This document shows, one piece after another, positions 10,751 through 25,319 of a stretch of 25,319 nt of DNA. The stretch covers positions 1-25,319 of the IMG/VR virus record IMGVR_UViG_3300040809_000268; one strand, given 5' to 3'. The position numbers were made by a program, and so were the translations under genes. Origin of the DNA: a virus. The notes below the pieces were generated by a model, which was given only the letters and a program-made list of their open reading frames with translations, did no database searches and was not told the origin of the DNA. Within the stretch, counting starts at the first letter, position 1. Every line of letters begins with the position of its first letter.

Positions 10751-11455
10751 CTATTTCCAGTTATCTTGTACCCATTTCTTCGTTGATTCGTGTGGATTTG
10801 GTTGGCCATGAAACACACATACTTTAGCATTCGGTTTCTGGTCAAATGTCCACTGCGATTTATCTATTCTGGGGGCCTCTCGGGAGAACCACTTGTATGA
10901 AAATGTCCACTCGTCTGGCATTACCTTACAATGTGGAGTTGATTTGATAAAATGGCTCATAACTTGTTGATCACCATGGTTTCTCATCATATTAGTTTCA
11001 TCTTTTTTAAATGATGTCCATATATGTTCAGCTGTAATATTGTTGAATTTCATAATACTTGAATTGTACACACCACTGGCAGGATTAAAATCATTTATAA
11101 CACCAAAGGTGTCCTCTTTACCAAACAATACCATATCATCTATGTTGTCTAGTATCACTACATCTAAATCAAAGTATAAACATGTACCTTTTAAGTTGGC
11201 TTCTGGACTGAATAGAGTTAGTTTGTTCCACCACCCATCGTAATTCGTGAAAGGCAGTTTTCTGGTCTGGTAATTAGGTATCTGGTTATTTCTAAAATCA
11301 TAATTTTCGTGAGTGAAGGTCTGGATGTGATCGGTGTAAACTATAAAGTTAAATGGTATAGAAAGGTTTCTTTTTACCATGTTGTATAGTTTACTTACAT
11401 AATCAGGACTATACTTGTTTCCCCAATATACACAAACTATATTAACCAGTTCCAT
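10751..11455 (-). CDS. GT-A-like glycosyltransferase
   Basis: A 234-residue protein: MELVNIVCVYWGNKYSPDYV, then a Rossmann-like start (PFNFIVYTDH), a W-W-K segment near 75-78 and LYFDLDVVILDNIDD with D96-L97-D98 as the metal- and nucleotide-sugar-binding DxD motif. The layout matches GT-A glycosyltransferases related to GT8-like enzymes, which add sugars to acceptors; the donor and acceptor cannot be told. Conserved W and H residues (TEHIW, HGDQQ, CVFHGQPNP) fit the active site region. It is the last gene of the sugar-modification block and overlaps its upstream neighbour by 19 bases. Confidence 0.78.
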   Translation of the reverse strand: MELVNIVCVYWGNKYSPDYVSKLYNMVKRNLSIPFNFIVYTDHIQTFTHENYDFRNNQIPNYQTRKLPFTNYDGWWNKLTLFSPEANLKGTCLYFDLDVVILDNIDDMVLFGKEDTFGVINDFNPASGVYNSSIMKFNNITAEHIWTSFKKDETNMMRNHGDQQVMSHFIKSTPHCKVMPDEWTFSYKWFSREAPRIDKSQWTFDQKPNAKVCVFHGQPNPHESTKKWVQDNWK

Positions 11456-21145: not shown

Positions 21146-22969
21146 CTAGATTGTGTAAATTGATACCTTATTGGATTTGCCCTTAACTTGAACCATATCC
21201 AATTTCTTCCAATCGTACTTGTTTCTTATCATTTTGTAAGTATCATAACCTACTATTAAAGTTGTGTCATAATTTTTGCTTATGCCTTCTAATCTACTTG
21301 CTAGATTTACGGCGTCACCAAGAACAGAATAATCAAATCTTTGTTTAGAACCCATGTTACCTACAACAGCAGGACCAGAGTTTATTCCTATACCTATATT
21401 TATGTGATTGCCTTCCCCAAAATGTTCATTATCATTTAACTCTTTTAAACATTTTATCATTTCTATTGCTGAATCAACTGCAAGTGATCTATGATTAAGT
21501 TGATCTAAAGGAGCGTTCCAAAATGCCATAATACAATCACCCATATACTTATCAATTGTTCCATTATTCTTCATTATTATATCTGTCATAGGTGTTAGAA
21601 ACTTATTAATAACTTTTGTAAGACCTTGTGGATTACTTTGATACTTTTCTGAAATAGGAGTAAAACCTCTTATATCGCAAAATAAAAAAGTCATGTCTTT
21701 TGTATCACCTCCTAGTTTTAATAATTCTGGATTGTTTTGTAATTTCTTAACCATTGCTGGTGCTAAGTAGTGTTCAAATTGTTTTTTAATTTGTTGTTTT
21801 AATTTAAACTCTAAAATAAATCTATTGAATACGGAATGAAATCCTACGATAGTTATTGTAATTAAAATCCAACTTACATCTACTAACATCAAATGTTTTG
21901 TAAAAAAGTAATAACTTAACCATACTGCTATAACATACCAAGATAAAAGTTTTATTCCTATAACCCAATACGGAGCAAATCTAGTCATTAATATGATAAC
22001 ACAACCTAGTAAAAAGGCAACAGCTAATTCTGATATAAAACTAATATCAACTCTTGTTATATTCTTACCATCTAATACAGTTGATAATGTTGAGGCAGTT
22101 ATCTCATACATATATTTTTCACCTAAAGGAGTTGCCACTATTGAATTTAAACCCTCTGCCGTGGTAGTTATAATAACAGTCTTACCTTTAAACTTGCCAA
22201 CTTGGTCTAAATCTGCTAGACTGATAGTATCATATTCTTTGTTCCATCTTAACCATATACGGCCATTTGGATCAGTCTTTATTGTAGAGAAACCAGGTAC
22301 TCTCATAGCGATAATACCACCTTCTCCTGCCTTCACCTGATAGCTTGGAGCGCCAGTGGCCACTCTTATGACCTCTATTGCCATCGCTGGATAGGTCTCA
22401 TCTCCAATCTTCATAATCAATGGTATTCTTCTTACAACACCATCTATTTCAGGTACTGTGTTTACAACACCAACACCACTTGCCTTTTCACCTAACAATG
22501 GTATAGGTCCTAACATACCTGGCCATTCAAACATATAGGCCATAGGATCATTAATTTTAGCAATACCTCTAGGTACGGCATTCTTATTTGTTTGTGTTGT
22601 TCCTACTTGTGATATGACCACACCATATTGTAATACCTCTGCTAATTCGTTGTCGCCACCTAATCTATCTTCTTCACTAAATAATATAGGTAATACAATG
22701 ATACCTACTTCAGCTTCTCGTAGTTTGATAATGACATCAGCAAGTATATCTCGCTTCCAAGGCCATTGTCCATATTTTTCTATGGCCTTTTCATCAATTG
22801 TAATAACACCTATATCTTGTGATAGTTCTTTCTTTTCTGATTGAAGAAGTAAATCAAAACCTTTAAGTCTTAATATCTCTTTGACTTGTGGGTCTTTTAA
22901 ACCTATAAATGTAATAACAAATAAAGTTACAAATGCTATAGTCCAGTGCGTGAATATTTTACTTATCAT
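21146..22969 (-). CDS. CHASE2-domain adenylate cyclase (class III)
   Basis: A 607-residue membrane receptor enzyme. Order: N-terminal membrane span (about 6-24), extracytoplasmic CHASE2 sensor (about 27-305; includes FDLLLQ, IGVITIDEKAIEKYGQWPWK and GVGVVNTVPEIDGVVRRIPL), three membrane spans (about 311-329, 333-355, 359-378), a linker helix, and a class III cyclase domain (about 422-590). Catalytic residues are all present: metal aspartates D432 (FCDIRGFT) and D478 (YMGDCIMAFW), adenine-selecting K474 and D546 (FDYSVLGD), and N555 and R559 (NLASR). It should make cAMP in the host cytoplasm. Its ATG overlaps the previous stop. Intact receptor cyclases are very unusual cargo for a phage. Confidence 0.92.
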   Translation of the reverse strand: MISKIFTHWTIAFVTLFVITFIGLKDPQVKEILRLKGFDLLLQSEKKELSQDIGVITIDEKAIEKYGQWPWKRDILADVIIKLREAEVGIIVLPILFSEEDRLGGDNELAEVLQYGVVISQVGTTQTNKNAVPRGIAKINDPMAYMFEWPGMLGPIPLLGEKASGVGVVNTVPEIDGVVRRIPLIMKIGDETYPAMAIEVIRVATGAPSYQVKAGEGGIIAMRVPGFSTIKTDPNGRIWLRWNKEYDTISLADLDQVGKFKGKTVIITTTAEGLNSIVATPLGEKYMYEITASTLSTVLDGKNITRVDISFISELAVAFLLGCVIILMTRFAPYWVIGIKLLSWYVIAVWLSYYFFTKHLMLVDVSWILITITIVGFHSVFNRFILEFKLKQQIKKQFEHYLAPAMVKKLQNNPELLKLGGDTKDMTFLFCDIRGFTPISEKYQSNPQGLTKVINKFLTPMTDIIMKNNGTIDKYMGDCIMAFWNAPLDQLNHRSLAVDSAIEMIKCLKELNDNEHFGEGNHINIGIGINSGPAVVGNMGSKQRFDYSVLGDAVNLASRLEGISKNYDTTLIVGYDTYKMIRNKYDWKKLDMVQVKGKSNKVSIYTI

Positions 22970-23387
22970 CTACCTCTGGTTCATCTGCCTCTGGTTTTCT
23001 TTTTATACCATCACACTTCTCTCTCACTTCAGCAAACTGGTCGGGTAGTTCTAGGTTTTTATAACGAGAACACATTTTTAACATTTCTAATTGTTGTCTT
23101 AACAATGCGTTTTCATTAAACACTTTTCTATATTCTTTTGAACAAGTTGAAGTCAATGGTATTCTTAATCTTACGCCTACTGTTCCTCTATCATCATCAT
23201 AACCACTTGTTGATGAACCTCTACCAATATTCTCTGTTTGTGAATATTCCATGTAAGGTTCTAAAGTTGGTCCTTGACAATGATTATCATATTGTAAGTA
23301 ATCGTTTCTTGCGTTAGCAGGTTTAACTAAAATAGTAAATAGAAAAAGTAATACTAATATCAACAAAGTAAATTTATTTGGTGCCAT
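22959..23387 (-). CDS. Small exported protein, unknown function
   Basis: I start this at the ATG at 23387 because it follows GGAGG at seven bases and opens a clean signal peptide (MAPNKFTLLILVLLFLFTIL, cleavage near ANA-RNDY); longer in-frame starts at 23402 and 23447 have weaker context. The mature part (~117 residues) contains DRGTVGVRLRIPLTSTC, which looks like beta-strand, then a helical stretch (NALLRQQLEMLK) and an acidic, proline-containing tail. Four cysteines are present. Placement directly between the curlin-like genes and the cyclase suggests an exported helper. Family not recognised. Confidence 0.68.
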   Translation of the reverse strand: MAPNKFTLLILVLLFLFTILVKPANARNDYLQYDNHCQGPTLEPYMEYSQTENIGRGSSTSGYDDDRGTVGVRLRIPLTSTCSKEYRKVFNENALLRQQLEMLKMCSRYKNLELPDQFAEVREKCDGIKRKPEADEPEVDDK

Positions 23388-23403
23388 CCTAAGTACCTCC
23401 ATG

Positions 23404-23775
23404 TTAATAATCTCCTGTGACTTCTCGTTTGAAGTCTTTAAGTTCATAACCTAAATCTCTTACTGCGTCATTTACTTTGTAATATGAGTTGTCTAACGCC
23501 TCTACTTTTGCTCTTGCTTGGGCAATCTCTGTATTAAGAAATGTCACCTCACGGAATAATTCTTCTCTTCCTTCACTATATTTTTGTGTTAGATTTTTAA
23601 TTTCAATTTTATATCGTTCATCTATTGAACCCAAAGATTGTTCTAAATTTGAGATAGCAATAGTGTGTTGTTCAATAGTGTTGTTTAGTTTACTGATAAC
23701 ATTTATTCCAGTATATAAAGAACCAATCAAAGCAAGTGCTATCGGCAACCAAGTAAATATTTTTTTAATATCCAT
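23404..23775 (-). CDS. Membrane-anchored coiled-coil protein
   Basis: A 123-residue protein with one N-terminal membrane span (WLPIALALIGSLYTGINVIS, about 9-28) followed by a long charged coiled coil (about 30-115, e.g. LNNTIEQHTIAISNLEQSLG and FREVTFLNTEIAQARAKVEA). The basic MDIKK start suggests the coiled coil faces the periplasm, although topology cannot be fixed. It starts after AAGGAGAAACT, ten bases from the curlin-like gene. Possible adaptor between inner membrane and the secreted fibre proteins; inference only. Confidence 0.72.
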   Translation of the reverse strand: MDIKKIFTWLPIALALIGSLYTGINVISKLNNTIEQHTIAISNLEQSLGSIDERYKIEIKNLTQKYSEGREELFREVTFLNTEIAQARAKVEALDNSYYKVNDAVRDLGYELKDFKREVTGDY

Positions 23776-23784
23776 AGTTTCTCC

Positions 23785-25104
23785 TTAATTTTGTGTTACT
23801 GTAGCTGAACAACTAGCAGATACACAGTTTTGTTCCAAATAGTAGTTTTGATCTGTACTACTATCTTGTGTTAATGTTATTGATGTATTGTTTCCACTCA
23901 AATTAATGTGGGCGTCATGGCTACCAGAACCATCTTGTGTTATATCTAGCGTATGACTGTCAGTTAGTATTATATTTAGGTAATGATCGCCTGTACCTTT
24001 TTGATCTACTTGAACATTATTACTATTATCTACATCTAAAAATAGTATCTTATCACCAGTTTCTTTTTGGTCTATTGTTAATGAATTACTATTACCATTT
24101 ACTTCAACTCTAGCAAAGTGTTCTCCACTATTACTTAAATGTAATTGTTCTAAATCTAAAGTATTTGAATTGCCTGTTATTTCAACTATGGCTCTTTGTC
24201 CTGTATCTTGCCATACATCTACATCATTTGAATTGCCATTCACATCAATACCTAATACGTTATCATTATTCTTTTGTGTTAATGTTATTTCATTATAGTC
24301 ACCTTGAATAGAACCAGATGATGTTAAATCTTTACCTATAATTAAGTTGTCATTACCGTCTTGTACAATATCTAAATCTATACCAACACCACTTTGAGTT
24401 ATATAAATGGCATTACCATTTTGAGTTTTTGCTCTTGCTGTGTTTACAGTTGTCTGTTGTGATGATGATATGCCTGCTGAGGGTGTAACTTGTGTTGTTG
24501 AAAACCATGAAGTTGGCATATCTGTTTGACAAGAAGTTGAATAAGAGTTAGTCATACAGTAATTAATATCTAAAGCGGCACCGCCACCCCATTCATACAT
24601 CCATATTGTAATTTCATATTGTTGACCAGCAGTCTTTGTTAATGAACCAGTTGCGTTCCAAGTAGCAGTACCTTGTTGTTGCCAATCTGTAATAACATTT
24701 GTACCATCTATGTTCATAAACACACCATCATCAGCCGCTACACCAAAGTAAACTGTTGTCTGTTGTCCTGTTGTACCTGGCCAAGTGATGTAACCTGTGA
24801 TTTCTACTGCCACCGAATCGCTTCTTCCACTATCTAATACCTGACCACTACCCCAATAATATCCACTTGGACTTGATATAGTTCCTGTGCTCAGTACACT
24901 ACCTAAACCATTTGGACTGGAATTTGAACCATCTGTGTTATAACCTGTTGAATTATCATAGAAAGGAAATTCTAGGCTTGGTGCATAGGTAGTTATATAA
25001 TATGTTTTATAATTTAAAGTTCCTGCCTTTGCCTTTTCCACAATAGAAAAAAACACCATCCATACGAACAGCCAGATTGTAAACCATTTCATAAATTTAT
25101 ACAT
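23785..25104 (-). CDS. Secreted PA14-like/curlin-repeat protein
   Basis: A 439-residue exported protein. Signal peptide: residues 1-27 (hydrophobic WFTIWLFVWMVFF, cleavage near KAKA-GTL). Residues about 28-185 form a PA14-like carbohydrate-binding domain (VYFGVAADDGVFMNIDG at 118-134, then ITDWQQQGTATW). Residues 229-439 are curlin-type repeats of about 22 residues, each ending a strand with Q: NEITLTQ (271), NDVDVWQ (293), NTLDLEQ (314), NSLTIDQ (340), NNVQVDQ (362), HTLDITQ (384), TSITLTQ (407), with NGNSN or GNN turns between. Cysteine pairs are C183/C192 and C427/C432. Curlins form amyloid fibres after export through CsgG. Start is the TAATG junction with the upstream gene. Confidence 0.85.
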   Translation of the reverse strand: MYKFMKWFTIWLFVWMVFFSIVEKAKAGTLNYKTYYITTYAPSLEFPFYDNSTGYNTDGSNSSPNGLGSVLSTGTISSPSGYYWGSGQVLDSGRSDSVAVEITGYITWPGTTGQQTTVYFGVAADDGVFMNIDGTNVITDWQQQGTATWNATGSLTKTAGQQYEITIWMYEWGGGAALDINYCMTNSYSTSCQTDMPTSWFSTTQVTPSAGISSSQQTTVNTARAKTQNGNAIYITQSGVGIDLDIVQDGNDNLIIGKDLTSSGSIQGDYNEITLTQKNNDNVLGIDVNGNSNDVDVWQDTGQRAIVEITGNSNTLDLEQLHLSNSGEHFARVEVNGNSNSLTIDQKETGDKILFLDVDNSNNVQVDQKGTGDHYLNIILTDSHTLDITQDGSGSHDAHINLSGNNTSITLTQDSSTDQNYYLEQNCVSASCSATVTQN

Positions 25105-25319
25105 TATTGATTCTGATATATCCTAATTTGATTTTGACCACCATCACCTAATTCATAATCTATAATTTCTTGGTCGCCTTGTGTGACATTGATAGTATAA
25201 CTGTTTTCCATATCAAGTCTTAATACTATATTGTTTTGAGCAGCGTCTAGTCTAGTCCAAACCCATTGAGGATCCTCTAGTAAAAGTATAACACCAAACT
25301 CATCTTTACCTGATTTTTT
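25104..25319 (-). CDS. Curlin-like protein, 5' end outside window
   Basis: The last 71 residues of a protein whose start lies beyond the window; the frame is open to the edge. It contains FGVILLLEDPQWVWTRLDA, then two strand motifs of the same kind as its neighbour: NSYTINVTQ and NQIRIYQNQ at the very C-terminus. Curlins (CsgA/CsgB) often end with such Q-containing strands. The stop TAA shares a base with the next gene's ATG. It may be a nucleator-type partner (CsgB-like) or a duplicate of the neighbour; the truncation prevents a decision. Confidence 0.65.
   Translation of the reverse strand, partial: KKSGKDEFGVILLLEDPQWVWTRLDAAQNNIVLRLDMENSYTINVTQGDQEIIDYELGDGGQNQIRIYQNQ

Follow-up and report, generated by a model that had tools for sequence, protein, structure and literature searches.

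A phage curlin-repeat protein with a PA14 head and sequence evidence for head exchange

A headed curlin gene in a phage curli operon

We analysed a stretch of 25,319 nucleotides of DNA from a marine phage (IMG/VR record IMGVR_UViG_3300040809_000268, positions 1–25,319; referred to below as the window), which carries close to one end a gene for a 439-residue protein, here called head-curlin. The gene, its parts and its neighbours, all on the minus strand, are the following.

23785–25104 (minus): head-curlin gene, encoding signal peptide, PA14 head and curlin-repeat stem, 439 amino acids (open reading frame, Pfam, HTVC008M orthologue)
25024–25104 (minus): signal peptide, residues 1–27, ending KAKA-G (sequence; common to L009 and L010 despite their other heads)
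24480–25020 (minus): exchangeable PA14 head cassette (DNA comparison with L009 and L006)
24727–24732 (minus): Asp125-Asp126, at the position of the D-cis-D calcium-binding motif of PA14 lectins (alignment)
24592–24594 (minus): Glu171, aligned with the Ca1 ligand Asp181 of MhPA14
23788–24486 (minus): curlin-repeat stem, residues 207–439, kept under different heads (Pfam, motif count)
25104–25319 (minus): C-terminal 71 residues of a FecR-domain protein, cut by the contig end; precedes head-curlin in the operon
22959–23775 (minus): two small open reading frames, of 123 amino acids (transmembrane segment and coiled coil) and 162 amino acids (signal peptide), inserted between head-curlin and the cyclase and outside the conserved operon
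21146–22969 (minus): CHASE2-adenylate/guanylate cyclase, 607 amino acids (CHASE2 3e-44, Guanylate_cyc 1e-22), last gene of the curli operon

The N-terminus of head-curlin resembles a signal peptide (MYKFMKWFTIWLFVWMVFFSIVEKAKA-G), residues 81–178 match the Pfam PA14 family (PF07691; E 3e-8, 34 bits, against a curated cut-off of 24 bits), and the C-terminal stem matches Curlin_rpt (PF07012; E 5e-7, 30 bits, cut-off 20.7 bits); a search of the window's own record places four curlin stretches in this frame. In the AlphaFold model a beta sandwich (residues 30–183) is followed by regular strands up to residue 438, with a modest mean pLDDT of 67, the C-terminal two thirds of the stem being mostly above 80. 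The initial annotation had read the protein as a signal peptide followed by a PA14-like domain, a secreted head of sugar-binding type borne by a curlin stem, and had proposed Pfam searches and structure prediction as checks; the profile matches and the run of regular strands agree with that reading, and its core holds.

A Ser/Thr/Gln/Asn-rich linker precedes the stem, whose 233 residues hold 11 copies of the motif h-x-h-x-Q, whereas 20,000 shuffles averaged 2.7 and never exceeded 9. The Gln residues lie at positions 237, 248, 277, 299, 320, 346, 368, 390, 413, 425 and 438 and mark about nine to ten units, mostly 21–26 residues apart with less regular first and last spacings, consistent with the seven or more units of ~22 residues claimed earlier. 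The identity autocorrelation of the stem peaks at 22 but does not exceed that of shuffled sequences, so the evidence for repeats is the motif and the profile rather than raw identity. Among PDB sequences the stem gave a single marginal match, to the curlin-repeat protein 8c50 (0.09), and the NCBIfam CsgB model matches head-curlin weakly (4e-5, far below its cut-off). The C-terminal Cys pair of the stem is invariant in A1. The stem is probably beta-solenoid-like and of amyloid type. Head-curlin shares with Escherichia coli CsgA and CsgB the curlin repeats, a signal peptide and linkage to csgG and csgF, and differs from them by its extra folded head of ~180 residues, by more divergent repeats and by the lack of an obvious N22-type CsgG-targeting segment: on inspection of head-curlin none is evident after the signal peptide, and the mature protein begins with the PA14 head.

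The gene that precedes head-curlin was initially taken for a truncated second curlin-like protein. This attribution did not hold, as the reading frame 25104–25319 (minus) corresponds to the end of phrog_37870, with 53% identity to the FecR protein of Pelagibacter phage HTVC008M and a Pfam FecR match of 1e-8; the final 'IRIYQNQ' resembles the curlin motif by chance. In HTVC008M, tblastn detects a full-length orthologue of head-curlin (72% identity), annotated 'hypothetical protein', in an operon ordered csgF, csgG, csgB, FecR, head-curlin, adenylate cyclase, where csgB, ahead of FecR, is the other curlin gene. The four Melnitz phages give a weaker match limited to the stem, and Melnitz has the same gene order. 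Pfam confirms CsgF, CsgG, FecR and the CHASE2 cyclase in the operon of relatives, and almost every retrieved viral locus of sufficient length shows this order, some with inserts ahead of the cyclase. The window, whose contig ends inside FecR, holds the FecR tail before head-curlin and the CHASE2 cyclase after it, as in the pelagiphage type VIII operon and as the cyclase is placed in relatives; csgF and csgG are present in those relatives long enough to show them. Phage curli operons with a second curlin, FecR and a cyclase have already been published (PMC9599517, PMC7029224, PMC9004378), in line with the initial annotation, by which some marine phages carry curlin-like genes, and judging from sequence head-curlin is the second curlin gene of this type VIII (curli) operon.

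Several observations on these loci can be added. A sensor cyclase such as the window's CHASE2 cyclase is in itself unusual in a phage. The two small open reading frames lie upstream of csgF in L013 (3084–3844) and are inverted in L020 (1733–2502), as a mobile pair; they are perhaps spanin-like, given a weak match to phrog_739 (0.0017). At three loci (L065, 3113–4222; L057, 3092–4249; L070, 3062–4180) the first curlin, at the CsgB position, has 369–385 residues instead of the usual ~228 and may carry an extra domain too. At L053 (1–1699) the end of a curlin stem is directly followed by a second complete head-curlin; this phage may have two copies in tandem, each with its own head. FecR and the cyclase were described as absent from bacterial type VIII operons (PMC9599517); on a 705 kb contig of a Hyphomonas MAG (L246, 7489–13512), FecR and a CHASE2-type cyclase adjoin csgF, csgG and a curlin gene. 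Elsewhere the window encodes an endolysin-like protein (1259–1831, minus; phrog_3513) and a glycosyltransferase (10751–11455, minus; phrog_1962).

Heads on a conserved stem

The best Foldseek matches of the PA14 head in the PDB, namely the sugar-binding domain MpPA14 of a marine ice adhesin, the Epa adhesins and the flocculin Flo5, are all calcium lectins. In MhPA14, sugar is bound via a calcium ion held by Asp136, Asp137 and Asp181 (PMC6650083), which align with Asp125, Asp126 and Glu171 of head-curlin. Wherever a PA14 head covers these positions the residues are invariant, the Asp pair in 34 of 34 heads and Glu171 in 32 of 32; the alignment thus places the D-cis-D calcium-site residues of PA14 lectins in the window's head. 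With these acids intact, the PA14 head probably binds a glycan. Fold, D-cis-D position and second-loop acidic ligand are shared with the lectins of RTX adhesins (MpPA14, MhPA14) and with yeast flocculins and Epa proteins, which differ in using an RTX or wall-anchored stalk where head-curlin uses a curlin stem. In the viral collection, all open reading frames with a PA14 head that are complete enough to judge carry this stem.

Across the same collection the stem (residues 207–439) stays similar while the N-terminal head varies. In 45 complete relatives the stems belong to one family and the heads to eight types, defined at 60% identity. Three of the types are PA14 lectin-like and five ThuA/GIFT-like, and the two folds are unrelated. 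The PA14 head can thus be interchanged with several others, a feature absent from the initial annotation. The window combines the head of L006 (97%) with the stem of L009 (99%). At the DNA level it is 95–100% identical to L009 in the FecR tail and most of the stem and 88–100% in the signal peptide, but only 50–68% in the head, whereas identity to L006 is 92–100% in the head and 50–82% outside it. Informative sites place one breakpoint between 25034 and 25031, where the signal peptide ends, and the other between 24487 and 24468, in the linker; 251 of 255 sites inside the head agree with L006, and 357 of 374 outside it with L009.

This exchange has occurred repeatedly. Seventeen changes of head type are needed on the maximum-likelihood stem tree (the minimum being 7); the window's own type, which occupies five rows, needs five. 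In their pairwise identities csgG, csgB, FecR, stem and cyclase vary together (Spearman 0.55–0.90), whereas head identity does not follow the other operon genes (0.04–0.13), the correlation being 0.27–0.45 within one head type. The cultured isolate HTVC008M (L008) is itself discordant, with a stem 93% identical to that of L066 and a head only 44% identical; relative to the window it is the head that is close (93%) and the stem that is distant (60%). The sequence comparisons show that recombination exchanges the head-coding cassette and leaves the flanking signal peptide and stem in place. A surface recognition domain that is selected to vary would be expected to show this pattern.

The ThuA/GIFT-like heads yielded no Pfam domain; their model is good (pLDDT 87) and resembles the N-terminal (GIFT) domain of IFT52, ThuA-like proteins and class I amidotransferase-like folds. 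No ThuA-type head was found in annotated phage genomes. Some of these heads are instead joined to long C-terminal regions with a final Phe and an alternating pattern (14 of the 14 checked), and of ten such records three contain CsgG as well. By this C-terminal signature alone, which is typical of outer-membrane barrels, they look like barrels, and Pfam and PDB profile searches with them gave no match. In two cases (L206, 1238–3124; L229, 4905–7784) the ThuA/GIFT-like head and Phe-ending C-terminus lie inside a curli operon, which fits a surface-display role of the heads. A further protein of this kind (L219, 4902–6962) has the look of an outer-membrane barrel or autotransporter.

The initial annotation had considered the PA14 fusion the less familiar part, and indeed neither PA14 or any other N-terminal head nor head exchange is mentioned in the phage-curli papers PMC7029224, PMC9004378 and PMC9599517, where the second CsgA/B gene of the operon with CsgF, CsgG, CsgA/B, FecR and adenylate cyclase is described without a head; a literature search for 'curlin' together with 'PA14 domain' returned one unrelated review. 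The protein itself thus belongs to a published system, while its head–stem architecture and cassette exchange appear new. Myxobacterial TraA (PMC6372800), to which NCBIfam gives a weak match (0.003–0.006), likewise has a polymorphic PA14-like recognition domain at its N-terminus and a surface stalk that is better conserved. Its variation stays within a single fold and its repeats are Cys-rich, in contrast with the two unrelated folds and amyloid-type stem found here, and we regard the likeness as analogy only.

Origin of the fusion and proposed function

A scan of 84,980 species genomes with a profile of the fusion found no relative. A CsgG search found many alphaproteobacterial operons; no PA14-headed curlin occurs among the best 80 matching bacterial csg loci, and the only headed curlin there, of the ThuA type, is on a 10 kb contig of a Flavobacteriaceae MAG (L243) that may be phage. 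Nowhere in 385 Alphaproteobacteria does one reading frame match both PA14 and curlin. These searches gave no clear bacterial source, and the fusion appears to have arisen in phages or to come from sources not yet sampled. The curli operon is absent from the host group: CsgG exceeds the cut-off in four of 197 Pelagibacterales genomes, and the one strong match lies on a phage-like 3 kb contig.

We propose that head-curlin acts in surface recognition, as the adhesin-tipped subunit of the phage curli (type VIII) system on the infected cell, a reading to which we give a probability of about 0.55. The Sec signal peptide would bring the protein into the periplasm of the infected cell, from which, given the operon linkage in relatives, it would leave through the phage CsgG/CsgF pore; its stem would co-assemble with, or be nucleated onto, the CsgB-like curlin, and the PA14 head would be displayed on the cell surface and bind a glycan, with a specificity that the recombination seen in the sequences would alter. 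Amyloid formation, export, ligand, display on infected cells and purpose are all inferred. Its likeliest use would be in recognition on the outside of the infected cell: it might keep neighbouring or sibling cells attached to one another (the published 'sibling capture' idea with a specificity domain added), or it might shield the surface glycans of that cell from competing phages. The pattern of exchange implies a target of the head that is variable and important. A counterpoint to the adhesin reading is that CsgG passes unfolded chains, and a head of ~180 residues, with a Cys pair in the window's type, must go through it with no N22-type signal evident. In addition, no cell clumping was seen in Melnitz infections (PMC9004378); the Melnitz phage has a shorter, different second curlin of ~340 residues.

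The main rival is a superinfection exclusion coat, in which the head would attach to a surface glycan of the infected cell itself and a mat of curlin would hide receptors, so that rival phages could not adsorb; head swaps would then track changing host glycans. Superinfection defence has been suggested for phage curli (PMC9599517), and the sugar-binding fold of the head and the near absence of CsgG from the host group are compatible with it; five of the eight head types, however, are not PA14 lectins, and the evidence fits self-binding and neighbour-binding alike. We consider the coat unlikely. In a reading as lysis or channel function, CsgG/CsgF would act as a pore or pinholin-like timer, as proposed for Melnitz from structure and synteny (PMC9004378), and head-curlin would be cargo or plug rather than adhesin. 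This leaves unexplained why a curlin stem should lie under exchangeable heads and why the calcium-lectin site is conserved, and cassette exchange of the head makes pore-only ideas less likely; we judge it improbable.

The initial annotation had also suggested that the protein might form part of the particle, and PA14 domains do occur in many other phage proteins of the structure library, just as host-recognition fibres do swap heads. This suggestion found no support: relatives keep the gene with the CsgG/CsgF export genes, FecR and the cyclase rather than with tail genes, the protein has a signal peptide, and tail-fibre stems are not built of curlin repeats, making a virion fibre or decoration protein quite improbable. 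Finally, since most loci, the window included, are metagenome contigs, the swaps could be assembly chimeras. The discordant isolate argues against this, as do breakpoints at domain borders and the 17 changes required on the stem tree, and we consider it the least credible of these explanations.

The purpose of pelagiphage curli was left as an open question (PMC7029224, PMC9004378, PMC9599517). The strong cassette exchange of the head points to recognition of something variable outside the cell as the selected trait, and the window's head type in cultured HTVC008M opens an isolate to testing. More tentatively, one operon may offer exchangeable heads, PA14 or ThuA/GIFT-like, on a CsgG-exported amyloid stem and, in some phages, on outer-membrane barrel proteins from that operon. 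If this is true, the infected cell would attach to cells or surfaces according to the head that its phage carries.
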